From positions 1 to 34,969 of IMG/VR virus record IMGVR_UViG_3300044530_002035: 34,969 nucleotides of DNA. One strand, written 5' to 3'. Positions 4,977 to 34,969 of the stretch are shown one piece after another. Made by a program: the position numbers and the translations under genes. The first letter of the stretch is position 1; each line of letters begins with the position of its first letter. Origin of the DNA: a virus. Under the pieces are notes generated by a model. The model did not search any database, had not been told where the DNA came from, and was given only the letters and a program-made list of their open reading frames with translations.

Positions 4977-5165
4977 TTAAAATTTCGGTTCTTTTGGAAT
5001 TATAGCCCAAAGTAAAAGATATATAAAAATTGCTGGCATTGGGGTGAAAATACCGACTAAAAAAAGAACACGAAATATAACTTCGTCAATTCCAAAATAA
5101 TCCCCTAATCCTCCACAAACTCCACCAAGTTTGGATTCTTTTCTTCTTAATAATTGTTTTTTCAT
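4977..5165 (-). CDS. PspC-domain membrane protein
   Basis: The 62 residues are almost wholly one PspC domain: KLGGVCGGLGDYFGIDEVIFRVLF followed by a hydrophobic helix and the typical LLLWAIIPKEP end. PspC proteins sense envelope stress in the phage-shock response. Phage copies could blunt or modulate that response, but this is inference. The gene lies downstream of the structured RNA at 5178-5340 and is followed at one base by the HAD gene. Confidence 0.88.
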   Translation of the reverse strand: MKKQLLRRKESKLGGVCGGLGDYFGIDEVIFRVLFLVGIFTPMPAIFIYLLLWAIIPKEPKF

Positions 5166-8988: not shown

Positions 8989-10194
8989 TTAATTTCCTCT
9001 TGATGGAAACCTTGTCCATCCGTTAGTCCATATTGGTTTAGAAAGTATTTCTAATTCTGCTCTTGTATAATTTTTCTCAAGATTACCTTCACTTAAAGAT
9101 TTTTCTTTCATTTGTAGTGCGGTAAACACTGTTGAGGTTGACTTAAAATTTAATAATGGGTCAAACGATTGAACTTCATTATTTTGAAATTTAGATACTC
9201 CATCTCTATATGATTGAGCGGTCTCATTACTTTCAATAGAAAATGAACCTTTTTGATAACCTAATATCTTTGAGTTTGTTATGGTAAACTGTGTTGCACG
9301 TCTCCATCTTAAACCTAAATTATGGTTTGATAGTGATGACACATCAAACGGTCCAATTAAAATCATACCACTTAATTTAGGATGTGTGAAAGGTTGTGCC
9401 GATGAACCTGTTCCATCGTTATCACATTCTACACCATTTCCTGCGTCTCCACTATCTACGAATTGTGGGTCTCTCTTTGAAACACTGTTTATTATAGTTC
9501 CATTATAACCAAAATCAAAATCGTAATCATCGTCTGCGGTTGCAAATGCGTAAAGATTTTTACCGTTTACAGTTCCTCCAAAAAATTCAAACGCGTCATC
9601 ATTAGCGTAAATTGTTTGAATGTTTTCAAGAATTGTTCCGCTTCCTACACCACCTAAAGTAAGTGCGTTGATTTCAGAATTCGGCATTGATGCGATTCCT
9701 GCGTATTCTATTCTTACATATTTCAAAACACCGCTATTGTCAGAGTCATTTGTTCCACCGTAAGGTCTACCAATACCTCCTTCAATTGTTGGTTCTGATG
9801 TCCTGTTAGTTTTTGCTCTTCCTAAAATTACAATACCACCCCAGTCACCAGGTTGTCTTTCACCTACAGGTCTGCCTGATGTAAAAACGATTGGTTTTAA
9901 TGCAGTTCCTTCAGCAATAATCTGAGCACCTCTTTCAATACACAATGCCCCTTTTTCACCAATGTCGGAAATAATTGTTGTTCCTGGTTGGATAATAAGT
10001 TTTGCTCCATCGGTCACATACACATACCCTTTTAATGTCCAAACTTTGTCTGAAGTTAAAGTTGTAGTTGCGTTAATGTTTCCTGAAAGAGTGGTTGATG
10101 TCGGAATGTTAATTGGCCCGTCTTCACCGCCTCCTAAATCTTTTTCGCATCCAAATAATGATAATGCTAAAATAAGTCCTAATAATTTTTTCAT
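8989..10194 (-). CDS. Cell-surface lipoprotein, beta-helix type, partner of TonB receptor
   Basis: 401 residues. A signal peptide with lipobox SLFGC places the lipidated Cys at residue 16. The mature protein has repeated short strands with Asn, Gly and Asp turns (TTLSGNINATTTLTSDKVW, GAKLIIQPGTTII), as in right-handed parallel beta-helices. Bacteroidetes carry similar lipoproteins beside TonB-dependent receptors. Its ATG overlaps the receptor stop (ATGA), so the two are translationally coupled and probably form one outer-membrane uptake or binding unit. I cannot name the ligand. A strong terminator follows. Confidence 0.75.
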   Translation of the reverse strand: MKKLLGLILALSLFGCEKDLGGGEDGPINIPTSTTLSGNINATTTLTSDKVWTLKGYVYVTDGAKLIIQPGTTIISDIGEKGALCIERGAQIIAEGTALKPIVFTSGRPVGERQPGDWGGIVILGRAKTNRTSEPTIEGGIGRPYGGTNDSDNSGVLKYVRIEYAGIASMPNSEINALTLGGVGSGTILENIQTIYANDDAFEFFGGTVNGKNLYAFATADDDYDFDFGYNGTIINSVSKRDPQFVDSGDAGNGVECDNDGTGSSAQPFTHPKLSGMILIGPFDVSSLSNHNLGLRWRRATQFTITNSKILGYQKGSFSIESNETAQSYRDGVSKFQNNEVQSFDPLLNFKSTSTVFTALQMKEKSLSEGNLEKNYTRAELEILSKPIWTNGWTRFPSRGN

Positions 10195-12668
10195 AAATTT
10201 AAATTTAATGTTAATGAAATTGTTTGCTCGTTATTTGTGTTTATTAGATTTCTGTTTTGTACTTTTTGGTAAAAGATGGATGACTGAGCAAAGACATCAC
10301 CTATTGCCAATTTTAATTCTCCTTTCGGAAGTTTATGTAAAAAGGTTATATCTAACACATCTCTACTGTTTTCGAATATGTCAGGATAACCTTGAAATCC
10401 CACTGCGGATATTCTATCTCCAACTCTGTTATATGTTATATTGAGTGTTTCATTCTTTTTATGAATATTCACACCACTATTTAACACATAATTTGATTGT
10501 CCTTGTAATTGTCTTTTCACACCGTTCACTTTTACCTCAGAATTCATTAAAGAAACATTTGTGTAAACGTCAAACCAATCAGTTATTTTTTTACGAACCT
10601 CCATTTCAACACCGTATAGAATAGCTGAATTTGGATTAGTATAGGTTAGTAGTAAGTTTGATGGTACAGAACCATCGGCAACAATCTGTTCTATTGGTCT
10701 AATAAAGTTTTTTCCAAATAAAGAAACTGATATGTTTTCACCTGATTTTGGATAGAATTCATATTTTAAATCTAAGTTATATATGTCTGTTTTTTCCAAT
10801 TTTGAATTACCTAAAATTTGAGCGTTTCTAACAAAATCGTAATATGCGAAATTTGCAACTTCTCTAAACTCAGGTCTTGATAATGTCTTACTAATTGAAA
10901 ATCTGTATTTTGTTTTATCTTCATTATATGAAAGATTAAGTGACGGTAGGAAATCTAAATACTGTCTGTTCACATTCACTTTTTGTCCACTAAAATCTGC
11001 GGTTTGAACCTCAAAAATATTGTATTCACTTCTAATACCTGTGTTGATTTTCCATTTACCAAATTCGTCTTCGTACATTGAATACAATGAACCTAAATCA
11101 AAGTCAGCGGTGTATCTGTCGGTATTGTTTGTTATCTCGTCTAACATATCGGTAGATTGGTAACGAAATATTCTAGCATTAAATCCTCTAAATCGTTTTA
11201 AATAACCACCACCGACTTTTATCTTACCAATCTCTTTATTGACATTACCATTAATAGAGTTTTCATCCATTACACTCCAAAAACGATATGTGTCTCTCCA
11301 TGCGGTTTGATACGGTTCGTTAATACCTAATGATTTTGTGATTGGATTTATTCTGTAGTCAGGTTGTTCTCTGAACATATAATTGTACCCAACGTTAAAA
11401 TTAAACGTTTTTATTTTACCGTCTAATTGAGAATTAATTATAAAGTTATTGATGTTATTTGATGCGGTACTACGAACGTTTTGAACGTTATCAAAGTTGT
11501 CACCATTACGAGTTAAAAATGAATTTTCTGTTTGGTAGTTTACCAAGGTTTTCCAACTATATCGGTTATCTCCCAAATATGTTAAATTAAGTAATCCATT
11601 TGTTGATAATCTTCTTGTAAATAATGTGTCTCTGTACGAATATGCCAATTCTGTAGATGATTGGTAATCTGTTCTATCAATATAATTTAGAGTATATGAG
11701 TTTCTAATAGTGGAACTAAATAAAGAGTTAAACTTACCTTTAGTATATCCAAATGAAAGACCTCCATTAAGATTTGGAATTGACTCAAATGATGATTCTG
11801 ACGGATTACCAATTAGTTTGGTAAATGCTCTTTTATCACCATTACTACTGATTCGATATCTGTACGTTGATGGGAAAGAGGAAGGGAATTTGGTAGGTTG
11901 AACTAACTTAAAATTTTCAAAAGTTGATACCGAACCCCAACCACTTCCCAATGAGACATTGAAAAAATTATCAGATACTTCTTTTGTTGTAACTTGAACA
12001 AGACCACCACTCCAATCTCCTGGTAAATTTGCCGATGAAGACTTAGCAACTATAATATTATCGATTAAAGATGTTGGAATTATATCAAAAGAAAACGCTC
12101 TTCTATCTGGTTCAGTTGATGGTAATGGGGTTTTATTTAATAATGCTGAATTATATCTATCGGCAAGTCCTCTTACTAAGACAAACTTGTCATTTTGAAT
12201 TGTAACACCACTTACTCTTTTAAGAGCGTCTCCTAAATTTCTATCAGGAGTTTTTTTAATGAATTCGGTTGAGATACCGTCAGATACTACGTTACTATTT
12301 CGTATTGACCTAACAACCGCGACTTCAGTTACTTTTTGTGGTGTTGCTCGTATTATAACTTCAGATAATTGAGTATCACTCTCTTCAAATATAATATCTA
12401 AGATTACATCAGATGTTATGTTTATTTCTTTTGAGAATTTAGAATACCCCATATACGATGCAGTAACATTATATAATCCAGGTTTTATTTTTACTTTGTA
12501 TTCGGATTTTTCGTTTGATACGGTGGAGTAGGATGTTCCATCGGAGTGTTTAAAATTGATGTGAGAAAAATATATGTTCTCGGTTTTAGATTTTGTAACA
12601 CCAGTTACATTTATTTGTCCAATGGCTAAAATTGGGATTAGTAGCAAAAATAGAAAAAATGATTTCAT
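10191..12668 (-). CDS. TonB-dependent outer-membrane receptor
   Basis: I start at the Met of MKSFFLFLLLIPILAIGQ, an obvious signal peptide; an upstream in-frame ATG at 12728 would add 20 unlikely residues (HLLKRCCSYWG). The product is 825 residues: an N-terminal carboxypeptidase-regulatory-like beta domain (about 20-105), a plug domain (about 125-235) with LGDALKRVSGVTI, VRGLADRYNSALLNKTPLPS and FDIIPTSLIDNI, then a long beta-barrel ending in NEQTISLTLNLNL. This is a full-length receptor of the Flavobacteria type. Such receptors take up siderophores, cofactors or glycans using TonB. On a phage genome it is unexpected: it may alter nutrient uptake or the surface receptor landscape of infected cells. 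Confidence 0.88.
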   Translation of the reverse strand: MKSFFLFLLLIPILAIGQINVTGVTKSKTENIYFSHINFKHSDGTSYSTVSNEKSEYKVKIKPGLYNVTASYMGYSKFSKEINITSDVILDIIFEESDTQLSEVIIRATPQKVTEVAVVRSIRNSNVVSDGISTEFIKKTPDRNLGDALKRVSGVTIQNDKFVLVRGLADRYNSALLNKTPLPSTEPDRRAFSFDIIPTSLIDNIIVAKSSSANLPGDWSGGLVQVTTKEVSDNFFNVSLGSGWGSVSTFENFKLVQPTKFPSSFPSTYRYRISSNGDKRAFTKLIGNPSESSFESIPNLNGGLSFGYTKGKFNSLFSSTIRNSYTLNYIDRTDYQSSTELAYSYRDTLFTRRLSTNGLLNLTYLGDNRYSWKTLVNYQTENSFLTRNGDNFDNVQNVRSTASNNINNFIINSQLDGKIKTFNFNVGYNYMFREQPDYRINPITKSLGINEPYQTAWRDTYRFWSVMDENSINGNVNKEIGKIKVGGGYLKRFRGFNARIFRYQSTDMLDEITNNTDRYTADFDLGSLYSMYEDEFGKWKINTGIRSEYNIFEVQTADFSGQKVNVNRQYLDFLPSLNLSYNEDKTKYRFSISKTLSRPEFREVANFAYYDFVRNAQILGNSKLEKTDIYNLDLKYEFYPKSGENISVSLFGKNFIRPIEQIVADGSVPSNLLLTYTNPNSAILYGVEMEVRKKITDWFDVYTNVSLMNSEVKVNGVKRQLQGQSNYVLNSGVNIHKKNETLNITYNRVGDRISAVGFQGYPDIFENSRDVLDITFLHKLPKGELKLAIGDVFAQSSIFYQKVQNRNLINTNNEQTISLTLNLNL

Positions 12669-12763
12669 AAAGTTATTTAAATTAGTTCCCCAATAACTAC
12701 AACACCGTTTCAATAAGTGAATTAACATTATATTATGAAATTATTAAATTAAGGAGTGAGCAT

Positions 12764-16098: not shown

Positions 16099-18111
16099 TT
16101 ATCGTCCTTTTTTCTGAACTTTAACCTCTTCGTTCTCAACCTTGATGGTGTAGGTTTTACCTTCAACCATCTTACCTGTTAGAACTTCTTCAGATAACAA
16201 ATCCTCAACTTTGTCTTGGATTGCTCTCTTAAGTGGTCTCGCTCCGTACATCTCGTCGAATCCAATTTTAGCCAGATAATCAACTAAAGTATCATCGAAG
16301 TTTATAGTGTACTTCATGTCCTTAAGACGTTTACCTAATTTCTCTAATTCAATCACAGTGATTTTCTTGATGTCCTCAGGGGTTAATGAATTGAATACAA
16401 TAGTATCATCGATACGGTTGATAAATTCAGGAGAGAAGAAATTCTTCATCTCTTTCATTAACACTTCTTTTTTAGCTTCTTCGTTGGCATAAGGACTATT
16501 AGAAAACCCGATACCTGTACCAAAGTCTTGTAACTTCTTCACACCTAAGTTTGAGGTTAAAATAATCAAGGTATTCTTGAAGTTAATCTTTCTACCTAAA
16601 CTATCTGTAACGTGACCGTCATCCAAGATTTGAAGTAAGATGGTAAACACATCTTTATGAGCTTTCTCCACCTCGTCAAACAAGATAACTGCGTATGGTT
16701 TGTTCTTAACTTTCTCAGTTAATAAACCACCCTCTTCGTATCCAACATAACCTGGAGGAGCTCCAACCAATTTAGATACAGTGTGTTTCTCTTGGTACTC
16801 AGACATATCCACACGGATAAGTGAGTCTTCAGAACCGAACATCTCTTTAGCCAATTGTTTTGCTAAGTGAGTTTTACCTACACCCGTTGAACCTAAGAAC
16901 ACGAATGAACCAATCGGACGGTTCGGGTCTTTAATCCCCAAACGGTTTCTCTTGATAGATTTTGCAATCTTAACAACCGCAGCATCTTGTCCGATTACTT
17001 TACCCATCAATTCTTTATCTAAGTTCAACAACGCTTTAGTATCGTCAACACTCATTTTGTTAACAGGAATCTTAACCATGTTAGATACAACCTCATAAAC
17101 ATTTTCCAATGTGATAGTTTGTTTGTTTTTAGACATAGATTCTTCAAACTTACGTTTTTCAGTTTCTAATTTATCCAACACTTTTTTCTCCTTGTCTCTC
17201 AACTGAGCAGCTTGTTCGTAGTTTTGTTTTTTAACCACGTCAATCTTTTGTTGTCTGATGTCAGCGGCGGCTTTCTTTAAATTCTCCACAGACTCAGGAA
17301 CTTTAAGTTCTGTTTGCATACGAGCCCCAACCTCATCCAAGATATCAAACGCTTTATCAGGGAACTCACGGTCTGTGATGTAACGGTCAGCTAACTTAAC
17401 ACAAGCCTCGATTACCTCGTCGGTATAATTCACCTTGTGGTAAGTCTCGTACTTATCACGTACGTTTTTAAGGATTTGGATTGTCTCATCAACAGTAGAC
17501 GCGTCCACCATTACTTTTTGGAATCTACGTTCCAATGCTCCATCCTTCTCGATGTTCTTACGGAACTCATCAAGAGTTGTTGCTCCAATGATTTGGATAT
17601 CACCACGAGACAAAGCTGGTTTAAAGATGTTTGAACCATCCATTGAACCTGAAGAGTTACCTGAACCAACCAATGTATGAACCTCATCAATAAACACGAT
17701 GATTTCAGGGTTAGCCTGAAGTTCTTCGATGATAACCTTCATTCTTTCTTCGAACTGTCCACGGTATTTTGTACCAGCAACAACTGAAGTCAAATCAAGA
17801 TTCACCAATCTTTTATCGACCAAGTTTCTTGGACAATCTCCATTAACAATTTTCATTGCTAATCCTTCGACAATTGCGGTCTTACCACAACCAGGTTCTC
17901 CAAGAATGATAGGGTTGTTCTTTTTTCTACGTGATAAAATCTGTGCAATTCGTAGAATCTCTCTGTCACGTCCGATAACGGGGTCTAACTTCCCTTCTTC
18001 TGCAAGTTTATTCAAGTCTCGACTAAAGTTATCTAAAACGGGAGTACCGCTGTCGGATTGCTTTTGTTTCTTACTCATCATTTTGTCGTCGTCGTCCATT
18101 AAGTCGTTCAT
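16099..18111 (-). CDS. ClpC/ClpA-like AAA+ unfoldase without N-domain
   Basis: 670 residues with two AAA+ modules. D1 has Walker A GEPGCGKT (71-78) and Walker B IDEVHTL (141-147); D2 has Walker A GSTGVGKT (407-414) and Walker [11 protein letters not shown]. Between them lies a short middle region with a UVR motif ([20 protein letters not shown], about 296-315), as in ClpC. The tip GIGFSNS (533-539) retains an IGF loop, which in ClpA/ClpC docks onto ClpP and is absent from ClpB disaggregases. The usual N-terminal substrate/adaptor domain (about 140 residues) is missing; only a short acidic start precedes D1. It probably feeds substrates to host ClpP. It is divergent from a UVR-motif protein gene, with a palindromic intergenic region. 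Confidence 0.92.
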
Positions 18112-20563: not shown

Positions 20564-21316
20564 ATGGCATTCAATTATTACATAGCATCATCCTGTAGTT
20601 CTCCTACGTATTTATATATTAAGTCAGAAGATGGTTTAATCATAGATAGAATATATGACCTTATAATTAACGGAAATAATAGTTGTTACACGATTGGTCC
20701 TGGATTTGAAACCCCATTAGCCGCAACCGCAACAATATTTAACGGTCCATGGAATACATGTGTTGAATGTCTTGGAGACGTTACACCAACTCCAACCGCC
20801 TCTGTTACAACAACACCAACAACAACACCAACAAATACCCCAACACAAACACAAACAGGTACAGCATCAGTAACACCAACCCCAACTCAAACTAAGACTC
20901 CAACAAATACTCCAACAAATACTCAAACACCTACTAATACGGCAACAGGAACTAATACACCTACACCAACGAATACATCGACGACTACCCAAACACCTAC
21001 TAACACCGCAACAAGAACTCCGACACCAAGTGTAACGGCAACTAAAACTCCAACACCTAATCCGACATCAACTCCAACAGGAACGCCAGCATCAACACCA
21101 ACATCAACACCAACCCCAAGTGTTACTTTAGGGTTTGTAATTGAAGTGAATCAACAGTATGAATATACTATTGGTATGTTGGGTAATTTTAGTGGAGGAA
21201 CAGCACCTGAGGGGGCAACTGTTCCATATTCGGTAATGACAAGTGAAGATGGTGATGAGTCTATTGTACAACTAAACGCAATCTCATTAGGAGGTTTTCA
21301 AGGATTAAATAATTAA
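20564..21316 (+). CDS. Thr/Pro-rich stalk protein of the virion, probable
   Basis: 250 residues in three parts. The first 73 residues form a Cys-containing globular head ([24 protein letters not shown]). Residues 74-187 are a low-complexity stretch of TPT, TNTPT and TQTPT units. The last 63 residues form another small domain ([22 protein letters not shown]). Long Thr/Pro tracts make extended, often glycosylated rods. The gene lies at the start of the structural module and has a late promoter, so a head decoration fibre or adhesion stalk is plausible. No homologous family recognised. Confidence 0.7.
20783..21125 (+). repeat. Degenerate ACACCAACA-type coding repeat
   Basis: Tandem short units based on ACA/ACT-CCA/CCT-ACA encode the Thr/Pro tract. 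Codons vary (ACA, ACT, ACG, ACC), so the repeat is maintained at protein level rather than being a fresh slippage array. Confidence 0.8.
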
Positions 21317-25356: not shown

Positions 25357-27114
25357 GTGAATAAAGAACAATTAATTATAGAAGTAACGAAGTGTATGAG
25401 GAATACTCCTTACGCACTTCGTACTTATTTACAGACCTACGATAACACCGTATCCAAATACGTTCCGTTAGATTTATTTCCCGACCAAGTTTCCCTTATA
25501 GAAGATTACGATAACTACAATGAAAACGTTGCCTTGAAGTATAGACAGGCAGGGGTTTCAACAGTTACCGCTGCTTGGATATCAAAACGACTAGCCTTTG
25601 CCAGAAAAGAAAAACCAGAAAAAGTTCTGATTATTGCAAACAAATTAGATACTGCGGTGGAGATGGCGAATAAGGTTAGAGGATTTACCGAACAATGGCC
25701 TTCATGGGTTGGTGCTGGATTCTCTCAAGAAAAAAACGCCCAAAGACATTTTAAATTAACTAACGGATGTGAAGTTAAAGCCGTTGCAACATCACGAGAT
25801 GCCTTGAGGGGTTATACTCCAACCATCCTGATATTTGACGAGGCCGCGTATATCGAGGCTGACGGAGATTTTTGGGCAGCCTGTATGGCGTCCCTATCTA
25901 CAGGGGGTAAAGTAATTGTGGTATCCACTCCAAACGGATACGACCCAATTTATTATGAAATCTATGACCAGTCTTTAAGAGGTATGAACGATTTCAAGGT
26001 AACCGAAATGTTTTGGTACCGTGACCCTCGTTATACAAAAGACTTGTATATGGTTAAAACCAATGATTTAGTTCACTTCCTTTTAAACAGAGAAGAGTAT
26101 AATCTTGATGAGGTTGTTATTAATTTATCTATGGATAATCCATACGATAGAGACCATTCTATTGTAACTGACTATATCGAACAAGGATATAAACCGTGTT
26201 CTGCTTGGTTTGAGGGAATGGTTAAGAAGTTAAAATACGATAGACGTAAAGTTGCTCAGGAATTAGAATGTAACTTCTTAGGTTCAGGAGATAACGTATT
26301 TGATTCTGAGATGATGACAGATATTGCCCAAAACCATGTTAAAGAACCTCAAGCTAAAATGATGGGTGGAGGACTTTGGATTTTTAAAGAACCTGTTAAC
26401 GGACATAAGTACGTTATGGGTGTCGACGTATCAAGAGGAGACTCCGAGGATTTCTCGTGTGTTCAAATTATTGACTTTGATGCCAGAGAACAAGTTTTAG
26501 AATACGTCGGTAAGGTACCTCCTGACATCTTGGCAGAGATTGCCTACAAATGGGGTACAATGTACAACGCATACTGTGTAGTCGATTTAACGGGAGGTAT
26601 GGGGGTTGCAACCGCTAGAAAAATGCAAGAGATGGGGTATCAAGCGGGTATGTACGTTGATAACGTAGACACTACCAACAAATGGAAGTTTGACCCTAAG
26701 ATGAATGAGAAGATACCTGGTATTAATTTTAACAGTAAAAGGGTTCAGATTATTGCGTCATTCGAAGAGTCCATGAGACACAAGTTTAGGATTTATTCAA
26801 GTAGACTTTATAATGAGATGAACACCTTTGTTTACATTAACGGTAGACCTGACCACCAAAAGAATCATCATGATGACTGTATTATGAGTATTTCTATGGC
26901 AATATACGTTGCTGAGAAATCATTCCAATCTTTAGAGAAGGTTGTAAACCACACTAAAGCAATGTTAAATTCTTGGTCAAGTGTTGTAAATGAGAATAAA
27001 AACACATCAGACTACTTCAATCCGATGGTTCCTCAAATGGGAAGACAAAACCCAATGAACCAAGATGCCACTAGAGCTGATTACCAAAAATATGGATGGT
27101 TATTTGGTGCGTAA
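25357..27114 (+). CDS. Terminase large subunit (gp17-like)
   Basis: 585 residues, GTG start chosen because it is the first start after the upstream stop and leaves room for the N-terminal region. The ATPase has a Walker A-like YRQAGVST (62-69) and Walker B ILIFDEAA (157-164). Coupling motif VVSTPNG is at 188-194. The nuclease domain has GVDVSRGD (D357) and the late HHDDCIMS (504-511), both typical of T4 gp17 RNase-H-fold nuclease sites. It packages DNA into the prohead through the portal encoded 40 bases downstream. Confidence 0.96.
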   Translation: MNKEQLIIEVTKCMRNTPYALRTYLQTYDNTVSKYVPLDLFPDQVSLIEDYDNYNENVALKYRQAGVSTVTAAWISKRLAFARKEKPEKVLIIANKLDTAVEMANKVRGFTEQWPSWVGAGFSQEKNAQRHFKLTNGCEVKAVATSRDALRGYTPTILIFDEAAYIEADGDFWAACMASLSTGGKVIVVSTPNGYDPIYYEIYDQSLRGMNDFKVTEMFWYRDPRYTKDLYMVKTNDLVHFLLNREEYNLDEVVINLSMDNPYDRDHSIVTDYIEQGYKPCSAWFEGMVKKLKYDRRKVAQELECNFLGSGDNVFDSEMMTDIAQNHVKEPQAKMMGGGLWIFKEPVNGHKYVMGVDVSRGDSEDFSCVQIIDFDAREQVLEYVGKVPPDILAEIAYKWGTMYNAYCVVDLTGGMGVATARKMQEMGYQAGMYVDNVDTTNKWKFDPKMNEKIPGINFNSKRVQIIASFEESMRHKFRIYSSRLYNEMNTFVYINGRPDHQKNHHDDCIMSISMAIYVAEKSFQSLEKVVNHTKAMLNSWSSVVNENKNTSDYFNPMVPQMGRQNPMNQDATRADYQKYGWLFGA

Positions 27115-27154: not shown

Positions 27155-29005
27155 ATGGCAGAACAGAATATGACGGTTTGGCAAAGACTGTCCCAAACAT
27201 TTGGTCCGAATTCACTACTTCAACAAGATTATCCGACTTTTAAGTTTGATAAGAAGGAATTGTTGCGTACAAAAAGTAGAGAGGAATACGAGAAAGAAAA
27301 ATTACAAGCACAGCAAACATTTTATTTAACCAATCAGTGGGCTAAGGTTGAAAACAACCTTTATTCTCAAGCCATTTATTATGAGCCAACAAGATTGTCT
27401 GCCCAATACGATTACGAATCAATGGAGTATACTCCTGAGATTTCCGCAGCATTAGACATCTACGCAGAAGAATCTACAACAACTAATGAAGATGGTTTTA
27501 TTCTTCAAATTTATTCTGAATCAAAAAGAATAAAAGGTGTGTTGGCAGATTTATTCAACAACAACTTAGACATTAACACTAACTTACCAATGTGGACAAG
27601 AAACACTTGTAAGTATGGTGACAACTTTGTTTACTTGAAATTAGACCCCGAGAGAGGGGTTGTGGGGGTACAACAGTTACCAACGATTGAGATTGAAAGA
27701 CATGAGGTAGGAGTTAGTGCAAAAATTTCTACAGACATTACAAAAGAGTTAGACAAAGATAAGAAAGCGTTACACTTCACTTGGAAGAATAAAAATATGG
27801 AATTCCAATCGTGGGAAATCGCTCACTTTAGATTATTAGGTGACGATAGAAAACTTCCTTACGGTACTTCTATGTTAGAAAAGGCTAGAAGAATTTGGAA
27901 ACAATTATTATTATCGGAAGATGCGATGTTAATATATCGTACTTCAAGAGCACCTGAAAGAAGAATGTTCAAAGTGTTCGTAGGTAATATGAATGATGAT
28001 GACGTTGAAGCTTACGTACAACGTGTTGCCAACAAATTTAAAAGAGAACAAATTGTAGATAACAAAACAGGTAACGTGGATATGAGGTTTAACCAAATGG
28101 CGGTTGACCAAGATTACTTTATTCCTGTAAGAGACCCTGCGGCACCAGACCCAATTACAACATTACCTGGAGCCACAAACTTATCAGAGATTGCGGATAT
28201 CGAATATATACAAAAGAAATTATTAACGGCACTTCGAGTACCTAAGGCGTTCTTAGGATTTGAGGAAGTTGTTGGTGATGGTAAGAACTTAGCATTACAA
28301 GACATTAGATTTGCTCGTACAATCAATAGAATCCAAAAGAGTATGTTGGCTGAGTTAAATAAGATTGCGATTGTTCACTTGTTCCTATTAGGATTTGAGG
28401 ATGAACTTTCAAACTTTACTATCGGTCTTACAAACCCATCAACTCAAGCTGACTTATTAAAGATTGACGTTTGGAAAGAAAAAGTATTATTATACAAAGA
28501 CTTAGTCTCTGACCCAGGTAACGGTATTCAAGCAACATCATCTACATGGGCTAAGAAACATATCTTTGGATGGTCTGACGAAGAAGTTCGTTTGGATTTA
28601 CAACAACAAAGAGTTGAAAGAGCTGTTGGTGAAGAACTTAAAGCAACACCTACAGTTATTACTAAAACAGGATTATTTGATAACATAGATAAATTATACG
28701 GAAGTGCCACGGGTGCAACACCTGCAGCGGGAGCGGCAACAACTCCTGACGGGGGAGAAGAGTTAGCCCCTCCACCATCTTTTGGTGGAGGAGGTGAGGA
28801 ACCATTACCTGATGCGGGGGCAGAGGTTGCACCGCCAGCGGAGGCACCACCAGCCGCAGAGGTTACACCTGAATCAACAAAAAAAGACATGAATATATTA
28901 CTTGAAAACAACTTAATTGAAGGTTCTCGAATGATAGACTTAGGTCAGGGACAAGAATCTTTAGGAGAAATTTCAAAAGAATTGGATAAGTTATTAAATT
29001 CATAA
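27155..29005 (+). CDS. Portal protein (gp20-like)
   Basis: 616 residues, the size of T4-type portals. MTVWQRLSQTFGPNSLL precedes the clip/wing region. YEPTRLSAQYDYESMEYTPEI and SAALDIYAEEST are typical of gp20 homologues. Then follow a WTRNTCKYGDNFVYLKL strand region and the C-terminal helical part DGKNLALQDIRFARTINRIQKSML. The last 90 residues are Pro/Ala/Glu-rich (PAAGAATTPDGGEE, APPAEAPPAAE) and end in a helix. It forms the dodecameric DNA gate. Confidence 0.94.
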   Translation: MAEQNMTVWQRLSQTFGPNSLLQQDYPTFKFDKKELLRTKSREEYEKEKLQAQQTFYLTNQWAKVENNLYSQAIYYEPTRLSAQYDYESMEYTPEISAALDIYAEESTTTNEDGFILQIYSESKRIKGVLADLFNNNLDINTNLPMWTRNTCKYGDNFVYLKLDPERGVVGVQQLPTIEIERHEVGVSAKISTDITKELDKDKKALHFTWKNKNMEFQSWEIAHFRLLGDDRKLPYGTSMLEKARRIWKQLLLSEDAMLIYRTSRAPERRMFKVFVGNMNDDDVEAYVQRVANKFKREQIVDNKTGNVDMRFNQMAVDQDYFIPVRDPAAPDPITTLPGATNLSEIADIEYIQKKLLTALRVPKAFLGFEEVVGDGKNLALQDIRFARTINRIQKSMLAELNKIAIVHLFLLGFEDELSNFTIGLTNPSTQADLLKIDVWKEKVLLYKDLVSDPGNGIQATSSTWAKKHIFGWSDEEVRLDLQQQRVERAVGEELKATPTVITKTGLFDNIDKLYGSATGATPAAGAATTPDGGEELAPPPSFGGGGEEPLPDAGAEVAPPAEAPPAAEVTPESTKKDMNILLENNLIEGSRMIDLGQGQESLGEISKELDKLLNS

Positions 29006-29014
29006 TATTTATTT
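29006..29014 (+). promoter_or_regulatory. Putative phage late promoter for the prohead-core candidate
   Basis: TATTTATTT, 13 bases before the ATG at 29028. A possible TTG start at 29013 lies inside the motif, so I reject that start. Confidence 0.5.
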
Positions 29015-29027
29015 GAAAACGAGCAAA

Positions 29028-29726
29028 ATGACCTTTGGTAATATCAAATCCCTGATGGAGAAAAATCTGCTAGAATCCTACAAAGATGAAAAGGATTTTA
29101 AGAAGACACTGAGAGAATTCAAACACAACGTGTTGAGTAATAAATCTATGTCAAGAGCGTATGCTTTGTATGACCAATTGAGTTCGCCTCAAGGGTTAAA
29201 CGAGCATGACGCAAAGGAGTTTTTGGAAGAGGGGTTATCGTTATTACAAAAAGTTTTGCCAAGTATTAAATTACCAAAAAGTGTTTCTGAGTCAGTTAAA
29301 AACAACTATTTAGATATCGATACGTTACTTTATAGCCAAAAAACAGATTTAATGGAAAGAATACAGGCGAAGAAAAACATCGTTTCAATCTTAACATCAA
29401 AAGTTGAAACAGTGAAAGAGTCTATTAATATCCCAATTAAGTCTATGGTAAACATTGCCAATCAAACGTTGAAAAATTACCTTGATACTTTAGATGAGAA
29501 TTCTAAAAAAGAATTCATACAGATTGTTTCTGAGGATACAAAAACTCTTGAAGGAAAATTTGAAGTTATTCGTGAAAGTGCTATAACTAAGTTACAAGCA
29601 AGAATGGAAACTGAAGACGAAAGTGAAATTAAATCAAGAATTTCAGAAACAATTAACAAATTAAAAGATGAAAAGTTTGACCAAATGAATTTTTTAAGAC
29701 TAAAAAATCTTGAGGAATCAATCTAA
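29028..29726 (+). CDS. Helical prohead-core candidate (gp67/gp68 position)
   Basis: 232 residues from the ATG, almost entirely helical and charged. The first 16 residues, MTFGNIKSLMEKNLLE, end in a gp21-type site. In T4 the small core proteins gp67 and gp68 lie between portal and gp21, the position this gene holds. I infer a prohead core role. Its last nine bases overlap the convergent bS21 gene. Confidence 0.7.
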   Translation: MTFGNIKSLMEKNLLESYKDEKDFKKTLREFKHNVLSNKSMSRAYALYDQLSSPQGLNEHDAKEFLEEGLSLLQKVLPSIKLPKSVSESVKNNYLDIDTLLYSQKTDLMERIQAKKNIVSILTSKVETVKESINIPIKSMVNIANQTLKNYLDTLDENSKKEFIQIVSEDTKTLEGKFEVIRESAITKLQARMETEDESEIKSRISETINKLKDEKFDQMNFLRLKNLEESI

Positions 29727-29909
29727 TAAGTCCTTTTTATTCTGAATATACTTAGCTTTTAAAATCTGTGCTCGTTTGACCACAGATTTTTTTGTATACT
29801 GTGTTCTCTCTTTAAGTAACTGATTTTGTTTTGTCTTAATTACTTTAGACTTTAATGTTTTTAGAGCTCTCTCAATATTATCACCGCTCTTAATGTTTAC
29901 GATTATCAT
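29718..29909 (-). CDS. rpsU: Ribosomal protein bS21, phage-encoded
   Basis: 63 residues. The sequence follows bS21 from end to end: MIIVNIKSGDNIERALKTLK, a basic middle, TQYTKKSVVKRAQ and the KAKYIQNKKD end. bS21 sits on the 30S platform near the anti-Shine-Dalgarno end of 16S rRNA and affects initiation. In Flavobacteria, bS21 helps to sequester that end. Phage bS21 genes have been reported from large phages. Here it is antisense inside the head operon, with a minus-strand late-promoter motif, so it should be made late and could shift host ribosomes toward phage mRNAs. Confidence 0.93.
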   Translation of the reverse strand: MIIVNIKSGDNIERALKTLKSKVIKTKQNQLLKERTQYTKKSVVKRAQILKAKYIQNKKDLLD

Positions 29910-29935
29910 ACAATTTAAATTTTTTTGACTATTAA

Positions 29936-29944
29936 CTATAAATA
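29936..29944 (-). promoter_or_regulatory. Putative phage late promoter for bS21
   Basis: Minus strand TATTTATAG at 29944-29936, 26 bases before the ATG at 29909. Confidence 0.5.
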
Positions 29945-29989
29945 CATTATCCTTTTATAGAAAATAAACATACATAATCATGAACATTA

Positions 29990-30430
29990 ATGAAAAAAGG
30001 AAAAAGTGTAAAGTTAAATTTATACAATCCAATTAAATCCGTTTACGGAACCGTCGATTCAAAAAACCTAAAATCAGTATACATCAACATCCAATCATGG
30101 GTGACCCCAAAAAAAGAATATGACAATTGGAATAGAGTCGTCTCAAATTTAGGACGAGAGATAAAACATTCAGTATTCGAATCAATTAACCAAAAATTAT
30201 TTCAAGAAAAAAGTATCGTAGATTTGGACCTCCGAACGAGTGGAATATCTCATGGAAAGAAATCATTCTTTAACTTAGAAATTAATTTATACACTAACTC
30301 TGAAATGGATTTTAAATCCCTCGAGATAAAAGATTCTGTCAAAATGATAGTCAATTCCATATTCAGAAATAACATCCAACAAAACAAATACTTTGAATTT
30401 TCAACTTCAAAAAAGACAGTAAATCAATAA
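29990..30430 (+). CDS. Conserved phage protein between portal and protease genes
   Basis: 146 residues, basic, beta-rich with a strong alternating pattern (VYINIQSWVTPKKEYDNWNR, SIVDLDLRTSGISHGKKSFF, LEINLYTNSEMDFKSLEI). No motif I recognise. It lies divergent from bS21 and before the protease gene; it may be an assembly factor or small structural protein. A longer upstream ATG at about 29981 is in another frame. Confidence 0.72.
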   Translation: MKKGKSVKLNLYNPIKSVYGTVDSKNLKSVYINIQSWVTPKKEYDNWNRVVSNLGREIKHSVFESINQKLFQEKSIVDLDLRTSGISHGKKSFFNLEINLYTNSEMDFKSLEIKDSVKMIVNSIFRNNIQQNKYFEFSTSKKTVNQ

Positions 30431-30466: not shown

Positions 30467-31183
30467 ATGAAAAATTTAAGAATATTAGAGGCAAGTGAAG
30501 TAGGTCACGGTATCTTGATTGAAATGGATGCTGGTTGGGTTTCCCCGAAAGACAGACAAAACGAAATCACTTTGAAAGAAGCTAAGGAAATGGACTATAG
30601 AAATCCGTTTGAATTTTATGCTGTCCTTCAAAAGTACGATACCCCAAACAGAAACGGTAGAACCTATCCTGAAAGAATCCTTAAAAGGGAGGCTGACAAC
30701 TATAAAAAATCAATTGCTAAGGGTTTATCCACTTCTGAGTTAAACCACCCAGAATCGTCTCTTATTGACTTAGACAGAGTATCTCACATTATCACCGATA
30801 TATGGTGGGATAGAAATATTTTGATGGGTAAGTTAAAATTGTTAACTTCGCCAGGATTTCACGAAAGAGGAATCGTTTCTACTAAAGGAGACCAAGCGGC
30901 AAACTTAATGAGACAAGGAGTTACTTTAGGTATTTCTTCTCGTGGGGTTGGTTCACTAAAGAAGGTTGGAGAGAGAAACGAAGTTCAAGACGACTTTGAA
31001 TTGATTTGTTTTGACTTAGTATCATCACCATCTACGCCAGGAGCTTATTTGTTTGGTGATGTTAAAGAGAGAGATAACTACGAAGAAAACTTAGAAGAAG
31101 AAATAAAACATAAACAAAGTAATGGATATGTGGAAAAGTCAGTTGACTTAATGAAAAAATTAAACGATTTTTTAGGAAAATAA
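30467..31183 (+). CDS. Prohead core protease (gp21-like, MEROPS S80)
   Basis: 238 residues. Conserved blocks are NRNGRTYPERIL (61-72), STSELNHPESSLIDLDRVSH with the presumed catalytic H94, and LGISSRGVGS with the presumed catalytic Ser at 157/158. The N-terminus MKNLRILEASE contains ILE followed by Ala, which could be a self-cleavage site. T4 gp21 trims capsid, core and internal proteins after [L/I]-x-E, and such sites are present in many proteins of this window. Confidence 0.93.
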   Translation: MKNLRILEASEVGHGILIEMDAGWVSPKDRQNEITLKEAKEMDYRNPFEFYAVLQKYDTPNRNGRTYPERILKREADNYKKSIAKGLSTSELNHPESSLIDLDRVSHIITDIWWDRNILMGKLKLLTSPGFHERGIVSTKGDQAANLMRQGVTLGISSRGVGSLKKVGERNEVQDDFELICFDLVSSPSTPGAYLFGDVKERDNYEENLEEEIKHKQSNGYVEKSVDLMKKLNDFLGK

Positions 31184-31426: not shown

Positions 31427-31454
31427 AAAAGTGGTCTATATGACCACTTTTTTT
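31427..31454 (+). terminator. Intrinsic terminator after the protease and DUF4494 genes
   Basis: AAAAGTGGTC-TATAT-GACCACTTTTTTT. A second weaker hairpin, TTGATT-TAAG-AATCAA, lies directly upstream at 31405-31420. Confidence 0.88.
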
Positions 31455-31484: not shown

Positions 31485-31808
31485 ATGAACTTTCAGGCAA
31501 TTTTAGGTACGGGGCTTACTCAAGAACAAAGAATAATTAATGCACCTTCATGGTCGACATGCCTTGCATACTGCGAAGGAGCGGGTAAAGACATTCAATC
31601 AATTCAACTAATACCAACATCAATTATTGTATTACACGACTTGAATACTACTAATTGTTATACCACAGTAATTAAAATTAATGAAGTAATTACTCAATAT
31701 GTTGTGTGGGCAAATAACTTTGAATCTTTCACAACTTGGTTGAATACTTTATCAAATCCGATAATACAATCAATCACTAATCAAAATAAACTTTACGTAA
31801 CAGTATAA
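31485..31808 (+). CDS. Small protein, unknown
   Basis: 107 residues from the ATG at 31485. I reject the in-frame ATG at 31431 because it lies inside the terminator hairpin and upstream of the promoter motif. Two-part fold: GTGLTQEQRIINAPSWSTCLAYCEG with two Cys, then an alternating hydrophobic region (IKINEVITQYVVWANNFESFTTWL). Not recognised. It sits between protease and scaffold, so likely a head or accessory protein. Confidence 0.7.
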   Translation: MNFQAILGTGLTQEQRIINAPSWSTCLAYCEGAGKDIQSIQLIPTSIIVLHDLNTTNCYTTVIKINEVITQYVVWANNFESFTTWLNTLSNPIIQSITNQNKLYVTV

Positions 31809-33504: not shown

Positions 33505-34969
33505 ATGGGAGCATTATTAGAATCAGGTCTTGTTGGTAACATCGGGTTAAAACACCTTAAAGTTATTAAAGAAGACACAATCAACAAATGGGACAAATTA
33601 GGATTCTTAGAGGGTCTTAAAGGTCACATGAGAGAAAACGTTGCACAACTTTATGAAAACCAAGCATCGTATTTAATTAACGAAGCATCATCTACTTCTG
33701 ATACAGGAGCATTTGAAACAGTGGTTTTCCCTATCGTTAGACGTGTATTCTCTAAATTATTAGCGAACGACATCGTTTCTGTACAAGCTATGAACTTACC
33801 AATCGGTAAATTATTCTACTTCGTACCTAACATTCAGGCTTACCAACCAGGTACTTCTGAGCACTACGCACCTTATGGTTCTCCGAATCAAGCTGCAGGT
33901 CAAACACCAAACAGTGGTTATGACTATAACAACACTAAAGACCTTTACGATAGATTCTACGAAGGTAACGAACCAGCTTTAGACCCACCAGGTTTATTTG
34001 ACTATTCTAAAGGACAATATTCAGCTATCACTGCTGAGGTTGGTACTGTAGCATGGTTAGCTGACCAATTAGTACCTTCAGCTTACACTGTTGGTAACTA
34101 CAGAAAAGTATTAGTTATCATGTCAGGTTTCGCATCTGATGGAGCTGGTAAATTAATCGGTCCTGATGGTCAACCAATGGATAACGAAGCTTTCTTATCT
34201 GATTTAACAGTTAAAGGTGTTGCGGGTAACGCTTACACTTCAGGAAACACAAACAACGCTTACTTATTCAGAGTTGTAACTCAAAGATATGGTAAAGGTA
34301 TTGTACAGTATGGTAACAACAACTCAACATTAGTATTCCCTAACAGTAAAACTGATGGTGGTCAATATGACAACATTTGTGACGCTCAAGGATATATCTA
34401 TTTAGAGATTGACTTACAAGTTCCTGCTGAAGTAGGTTCAGGTTCAATGGACGGATACACAGGTTCTACTTTCGAATCTACAGCTGCTGCTGACAACGCG
34501 TTCTCAGCGACTTATAGAATCTACAAAAACTTAGAATTTGAAGATAAAATTGGTGAGGTTTCTTTTGACTTAATGTCAGTAACTGTTTCTGTAACAGAAA
34601 GAAAATTAAGAGCACAATGGTCTCCAGAAATGGCACAAGACGTTGCGGCTTTCCACAACATCGATGCTGAGGCTGAATTAACAGCTTTATTATCTGAGCA
34701 AGTTGCGGCTGAAATCGACCGTGAAATCTTAAGAGATTTACGTAAAGGTGCAGCATGGAACTTACGTTGGGATTACAACGGTTGGAAGAGATTAGGTTCT
34801 AATGCAGTTCCTTACACTCAAAAAGACTGGAACCAAACGCTTATCACAGCGATTAACCAAATTTCTGCTCAAATCCACAAATCTACATTAAGAGGTGGAG
34901 CTAACTGGATTGTTGTTTCTTCTGAAATTTCTGCAATCTTCGACGATTTAGAATATTTCCACGTATCAA
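33505..34969 (+). CDS. Major capsid protein (gp23-like), truncated by window end
   Basis: The frame is open from ATG 33505 to the window end, 488 codons; a T4-like gp23 has about 520, so little is missing. N-terminal MGALLESGLVGNIGLKHLKV leads to YLINEASS, an I-N-E site followed by Ala at residue 60/61, close to the T4 cleavage position (65/66). The segment TGAFETVVFPIVRRVFSKLL and NLPIGKLFYFVPNI are hallmark gp23 sequences. It assembles around the scaffold encoded immediately upstream and is matured by the gp21-like protease. Confidence 0.95.
   Translation, partial: MGALLESGLVGNIGLKHLKVIKEDTINKWDKLGFLEGLKGHMRENVAQLYENQASYLINEASSTSDTGAFETVVFPIVRRVFSKLLANDIVSVQAMNLPIGKLFYFVPNIQAYQPGTSEHYAPYGSPNQAAGQTPNSGYDYNNTKDLYDRFYEGNEPALDPPGLFDYSKGQYSAITAEVGTVAWLADQLVPSAYTVGNYRKVLVIMSGFASDGAGKLIGPDGQPMDNEAFLSDLTVKGVAGNAYTSGNTNNAYLFRVVTQRYGKGIVQYGNNNSTLVFPNSKTDGGQYDNICDAQGYIYLEIDLQVPAEVGSGSMDGYTGSTFESTAAADNAFSATYRIYKNLEFEDKIGEVSFDLMSVTVSVTERKLRAQWSPEMAQDVAAFHNIDAEAELTALLSEQVAAEIDREILRDLRKGAAWNLRWDYNGWKRLGSNAVPYTQKDWNQTLITAINQISAQIHKSTLRGGANWIVVSSEISAIFDDLEYFHVS

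Follow-up and report, generated by a model that had tools for sequence, protein, structure and literature searches.

To our knowledge, bS21 is the commonest of the virus-encoded ribosomal proteins. The closest described systems are the ~300-kb Bacteroidetes phages of Chen et al. (2022; PMC9723584), in which the bS21 gene lies on the reverse strand within the TerL/portal/protease/MCP region, its product carries an aromatic residue at position 54 and diverges from the host protein at residues 21, 23, 25, and 28, and, in Lake Rotsee, phage bS21 is transcribed late. These authors already proposed that the late phage bS21 replaces host bS21, also considered a counter-defence role when phage protein synthesis is stalled, described a co-occurring neighbour gene (bS21_CN, family fam498) that is absent from bS21-less outgroups, and stated that below ~70% TerL similarity bS21 is no longer seen. 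According to PMC9723584 and PMC9976891, which cite Mizuno et al. (2019; PMC6375957), E. coli 70S ribosomes reportedly take up the bS21 of the Pelagibacter phage HTVC008M. This protein is phage-encoded too, but the host group is a different one and not part of the Bacteroidota, in which the anti-Shine–Dalgarno (ASD) sequence is sequestered. On the host side, McNutt et al. (2023; PMC9976891) demonstrated that F. johnsoniae rpsU has an extended Shine–Dalgarno (SD) sequence and is autoregulated by bS21-lacking ribosomes, that Tyr54 of bS21 stacks on A1534 and has a role in ASD sequestration, that bS21-replete ribosomes favour SD-less mRNA, and that bS21-deficient ribosomes initiate poorly on such mRNA.

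The DNA analysed here (the window) is the whole 34,969-base fragment IMGVR_UViG_3300044530_002035, the source of which is a T4-like huge phage. Its plus strand carries the genes for the terminase large subunit (TerL, 25357–27114; PF03237, 3.4e-13; phrog_2), a T4 gp20-like portal protein (27155–29005; PF07230, 5e-75), ORF237 as the next gene after the portal (29013–29726, with a more likely start at the ATG at 29028, 15 nt upstream of which a late motif is located), ORF146 (29990–30430), the prohead protease (30467–31183; PF03420, 2.4e-22), and the gp23-like major capsid protein (MCP), cut by the window end (33505–34968; PF07068, 7.7e-43). The bS21 gene (29718–29909) occupies the minus strand, opposite to all of these; it is convergent with ORF237, the two overlapping tail-to-tail by 9 nt (29718–29726), and divergent from ORF146. 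An earlier note on this DNA had placed the gene “antisense within the head operon”; the opposite strand stands, while “operon” is loose, since published RNA reads (PMC9723584) show that the genes here do not form a single operon. From two scans of viral contigs we obtained 80 bS21 loci and 80 TerL loci, and gene order and strand are identical in every bS21-bearing locus having both neighbours.

The window and all bS21-bearing loci examined resemble the phages of Chen et al. in the reverse-strand bS21 of the TerL–portal–protease–MCP region and in a Flavobacteria-like bS21 with an aromatic residue 54 and a first half diverged from the host protein. Relatives of the window are also similar in genome size (309 and 317 kb, against 293–331 kb for the phages of Chen et al.). 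Since both this arrangement and the idea of a bS21 swap are published, the core finding is already known in kind. Compared with the available parts of that account, the additions here are the missing strong host-type SD of the phage bS21 genes, their TATTTAT promoter and its turnover, a predicted terminator written antisense within the gene, and a bS21-less sister clade.

As the earlier note had claimed, the bS21 ORF is complete from ATG to stop (63 aa), and the profile search that was to decide its identity places it above the cut-offs of two curated models (PF01165, 40.4 bits against 27, E 2.3e-10; TIGR00030 equivalog, 34.6 bits against 28.95). Among solved structures, the F. johnsoniae bS21 is the best match (7jil chain z, residues 1–62 of 63, E 7e-14). 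By these matches, the ORF is a genuine bS21, and its relatives are under purifying selection (median dN/dS 0.118). The closest cellular bS21 proteins are 44–57% identical and mostly flavobacterial, which supports, by similarity, a flavobacterial host. We compared 36 distinct phage variants with 80 cellular bS21 proteins of Bacteroidota. Residue 54 is Tyr in 32 phage variants, the window's included, and His in the other four, which supports the assignment of the window protein to the Bacteroidota-type bS21 with the ASD-stacking Tyr54. Family, Tyr54 and, by homology, contact with the 16S 3′ tail are common to the phage protein and the bS21 of Flavobacteriia. The differences from the host protein include the replacement of residues 18–31, where a phage-specific helix segment (LKSKVIKTKQNQ, residues 19–30 in the window) is nearly frozen as LKSKVIKTKQ[NT]Q in the 36 variants, with fixed differences from all 80 cellular proteins at residues 21, 23, 24, and 28. 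The second difference is residue 41, which is Pro in 79/80 hosts and Lys in most phage copies (30/36).

The control regions differ as well. Host rpsU has an SD pairing energy with a median of −17.6 kcal/mol, and 85% of the genes lie below −13 kcal/mol, the threshold for the extended SD of autoregulated Bacteroidota rpsU. For phage bS21 the median is −1.1 kcal/mol, none of 45 genes lies below −13, and the window's value is +0.8 kcal/mol. Having no strong SD, phage bS21 falls outside the autoregulatory scheme of host rpsU. Phage mRNAs lack an SD, as the earlier note had supposed (median pairing in the SD region −1.8 kcal/mol in one relative and −1.7 kcal/mol in another). A preference for SD-less mRNA is present in host ribosomes as soon as they are replete with bS21, and the phage protein would thus maintain or adjust this preference and not bring it about.

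The explanation that we favour on balance combines a late bS21 swap with escape from rpsU control and an antisense terminator. A Flavobacteria-infecting T4-like huge phage would express a bS21 gene of its own, driven by a late-type promoter, and this protein would replace host bS21 on the 30S platform. With Tyr54 kept, the ASD tail would remain out of reach and SD-less phage mRNAs would still be initiated efficiently, while the changed N-terminal helix segment may tune the choice of mRNA. The phage gene without an SD would escape the autoregulation of host rpsU. Since replete ribosomes translate rpsU poorly, the Tyr54-bearing phage bS21 should depress host bS21 synthesis, which would favour the replacement. 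The antisense strand of the same gene would provide an intrinsic terminator at which the upstream head transcript ends, and one DNA stretch would thereby do double duty.

The most serious competitor, which we regard as possible but unlikely, is that phage bS21 equals host bS21 in function and provides dosage or insurance, keeping late ribosomes replete after host shut-off with no selectivity for mRNA. The retention of Tyr54 and of most family-conserved residues agrees with it, as do the autoregulation and SD dependence of the host gene, neither of which applies to the phage copy, and the poor initiation of bS21-deficient ribosomes on SD-less mRNA (PMC9976891). However, residues 18–31 have been replaced and then nearly frozen in the 36 variants (L-K-S-K-V-I-K-T-K-Q), and this points to a particular, altered function of the segment.

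Closely related phages with and without bS21 provide a natural comparison. Twelve loci reported here, with TerL 86–90% identical to that of the window, have no bS21; both of its neighbours, ORF237 and ORF146, neither of which was matched to the family fam498 of bS21_CN, occur in them, and the gap between the two is ~135 nt instead of the ~266–303 nt of bS21-bearing loci. No bS21 match was found anywhere in nine records of this clade (one of 309 kb, most of them fragments), while seven of the seven bS21-bearing records searched alongside were matched. All bS21-less loci group together in the TerL tree (SH-aLRT 98), and their inner branch is flanked by two bS21-bearing groups; the outgroups are only ~28–30% identical and the rooting is unreliable, so that one loss is likely and one gain possible. 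Since this clade does without bS21, neither phages of this type nor their leader architecture require it. As for another platform protein, no bS6 was detected in seven related phage records, in which the positive controls matched. In the divergent spacer between bS21 and ORF146, the element TTTTTGAC is conserved across relatives with and without bS21; a promoter-like TTGACT-N17-TATCCT for ORF146 lies there on the plus strand (29925–29953), the consensus scan that gave it being by itself not above chance.

Intrinsic terminators located inside the coding sequence of a convergent neighbour are a general bacterial phenomenon. In the window, the plus strand forms a hairpin at 29761–29793 (AAAATCTGTGCTCGTTTGACCACAGATTTT, then TTT), antisense inside bS21 codons ~39–50 and 38–67 nt past the coding end of ORF237. 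It has a 12-pair stem with one mismatch and a stability of −11.3 kcal/mol, followed by a U-tract (seven U, four of them within the stem), and with a stable stem, a direct U-tract and a position after the gene end it is predicted to be an intrinsic terminator of the portal/ORF237 transcript. Terminator-like hairpins starting at 32–41 nt occur in 41/53 distinct spacers of bS21-bearing loci. In bS21-less spacers, a free-standing terminator is found at 25–30 nt in 8/9 distinct cases, and the ninth (L131) has a visible hairpin missed by the rule of the script; the embedded hairpin and the free terminator thus stand at nearly equal distances from ORF237.

The hairpin could also be a by-product of the bS21 protein sequence with no terminator activity, which we consider improbable. 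Its arms fall on the conserved SV..RAQ codons, and 10/53 distinct bS21-bearing spacers have no such hairpin at all; in two further loci (L142 and L158) the sole hairpin is weak and lies at 109 nt. An antisense terminator is therefore not universal. Against the by-product reading, when four of the proteins were recoded synonymously with protein and codon usage held, only 0, 0, 1, and 0 of 1500 recodings were as stable as the observed sequence, and Gln48 is encoded by CAG in the stem-bearing copies, although CAG makes up only 13% of Gln codons. Protein sequence and codon usage, therefore, do not explain the hairpin. Nor does an antisense hairpin at or below −9 kcal/mol occur in any of 80 host bS21 genes. 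In L072 and its relatives, the pairing is kept via alternative complementary arms, TCGGTTC/GAACCGA, with changed residues (a compensatory change of the stem), and the nearly equal distance from ORF237 in loci with and without bS21 also argues for a terminator. The embedded hairpin was absent from the output of a generic terminator scan, which gave no more terminators than expected by chance, so the case rests on these stricter tests.

The U-tract is encoded opposite the codons Lys40-Lys41. Phage variants keeping Pro41 have no U-tract, and a few Lys41 variants (L142, L147) have no good stem. We consider it likely, from the sequence comparisons, that the bS21 gene is dual-coding: its sense strand would give a protein free of host rpsU control, its antisense strand a working terminator of the head transcript, and the need for a terminator would have left its mark on the protein, with Lys in place of Pro41 serving the U-tract and alternative residue pairs 47/48 serving the alternative stem. 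The arrangement resembles the embedded terminators of bacteria in having a hairpin and U-tract on one strand and a protein on the other; unlike these, it is located within the gene of a ribosomal protein, is found repeatedly in one group of phages in which the stem turns over, and is accompanied by a change in a residue otherwise invariant in hosts. Our literature searches, limited to open-licence papers and not aimed at embedded terminators, yielded no prior description of an antisense terminator in phage bS21. Should the terminator prove functional, translation would not be the whole reason for which bS21 is kept in its conserved “antisense” position. Two testable features are thereby added to the published picture: escape from the SD-based host autoregulation and a terminator written antisense in the gene.

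A mainly extraribosomal function, in which phage bS21 is an RNA-binding decoy or a counter-defence protein, appears very improbable. It is supported by the reported extraribosomal association of bS21 with the OLE RNP (PMC12054373) and by the counter-defence idea of Chen et al. (PMC9723584), but the whole bS21 family signature and the ASD-stacking residue are strongly retained in the phage proteins and no domain is fused to them.

The bS21 gene of the window has its own late-promoter motif, as the earlier note had stated: TATTTAT on the minus strand (29944–29938), 28 nt before the ATG, with a predicted leader of ~24 nt. A TATTT-type element stands directly before the ATG in 36/45 distinct relatives; in seven, including the window, only a distal TATTTAT is present, 28–30 nt away, and L013 and L101 have both. 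This turnover in position supports a working bS21 promoter, and the late-type motif lends indirect support to late co-expression of bS21 with the structural genes. A protein of 248–270 aa with a weak Sigma70_r2 match, found in all five related records searched (L193, 12590–12754 on the plus strand in record G010, and similar places in G001, G011, G012, and G015), is a candidate for a late sigma factor able to recognize TATTTAT; it has no PHROG match. Strong matches to sigma-70 region 2 belong to another protein of 265–266 aa on the minus strand (L292, G010:277839–278048; L291, G001:55126–55332), the G010 copy of which is assigned to phrog_351, RNA polymerase sigma factor.

Many phage genes are preceded by TATTTAT. 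The view that late genes have almost no leader is partly right: in the window, 7/16 motif genes have the motif 3–6 nt before the start and would be leaderless or almost so, but for the head genes and bS21 the distance is 13–29 nt and the predicted leaders are ~9–25 nt. We compared the spacing in the 309-kb bS21-less and the 317-kb bS21-bearing genomes, with starts taken from a simple ORF caller. The distance is bimodal: the motif ends 3–5 nt before the start in 35/82 and 33/92 motif genes, respectively, lies at 6–12 nt in only 2 and 7, and at 13–18 nt in 26 and 29. Local shuffling predicts ~1.1–1.4 genes at 3–5 nt, and in hosts TATTTAT precedes 7/1,111 genes, never at this distance. Since the −7 element of F. 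johnsoniae precedes the transcription start by 4 or 5 nt (PMC6847099), the 3–5-nt class predicts leaderless mRNA; in F. psychrophilum, leaderless mRNAs are a minority of 5.5% (PMC9723704). The leader class is kept in orthologues of the two genomes (12 leaderless in both, 17 short in both, and 6 long in both). The jumbo phage AR9 was considered as a leaderless precedent and rejected, its reported 5′ UTRs being at least 26 nt.

The earlier note suggested that a late phage bS21 could bias ribosomes to leaderless or SD-less phage mRNAs. Read as a specific switch to leaderless phage mRNAs, this appealing idea is the least probable of all the readings: leaderless-type spacing does occur in 33–35 genes per genome and is absent for TATTTAT in hosts, but the relative in which no bS21 was found matches the bS21-bearing one in how many motif genes have this spacing and where the motif lies, with 12 orthologous genes leaderless in both, so that the predicted leaderless translation is independent of phage bS21, and the head genes of the window and its bS21 are themselves leadered.

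Several other features of the window deserve mention. No Rfam RNA was detected in the head region at the gathering threshold. A strong terminator hairpin with a T-run follows the DUF4494 gene (31427–31451, plus strand), and for this reason ORF125 probably starts at the ATG at 31485 and not at the GTG at 31431. A protein rich in Thr/Pro repeats (TPTxTxT) is encoded at 20564–21316 (plus strand), with TATTTAT 14 nt upstream. A TonB-dependent outer-membrane receptor (PF14905 and Plug; 8989–12728, minus strand), adjacent to a 401-aa protein with a lipoprotein-like N-terminus, is unusual in a phage; this region has no relative in eight related phage records and may represent host-derived cargo or an assembly junction. 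A PspC-domain protein of 62 aa (4977–5165, minus strand) carries a host-like membrane stress domain. A ClpA/ClpC-like AAA+ chaperone with a UvrB/C motif (16099–18111, minus strand) is kept upstream of TerL in the relatives, the bS21-less ones included. Finally, a cluster of ten tRNA genes (Cys, Trp, Tyr, Met, Gln, Arg, His, Ser, Ile, and Ser) occupies 302–2555 on the plus strand.
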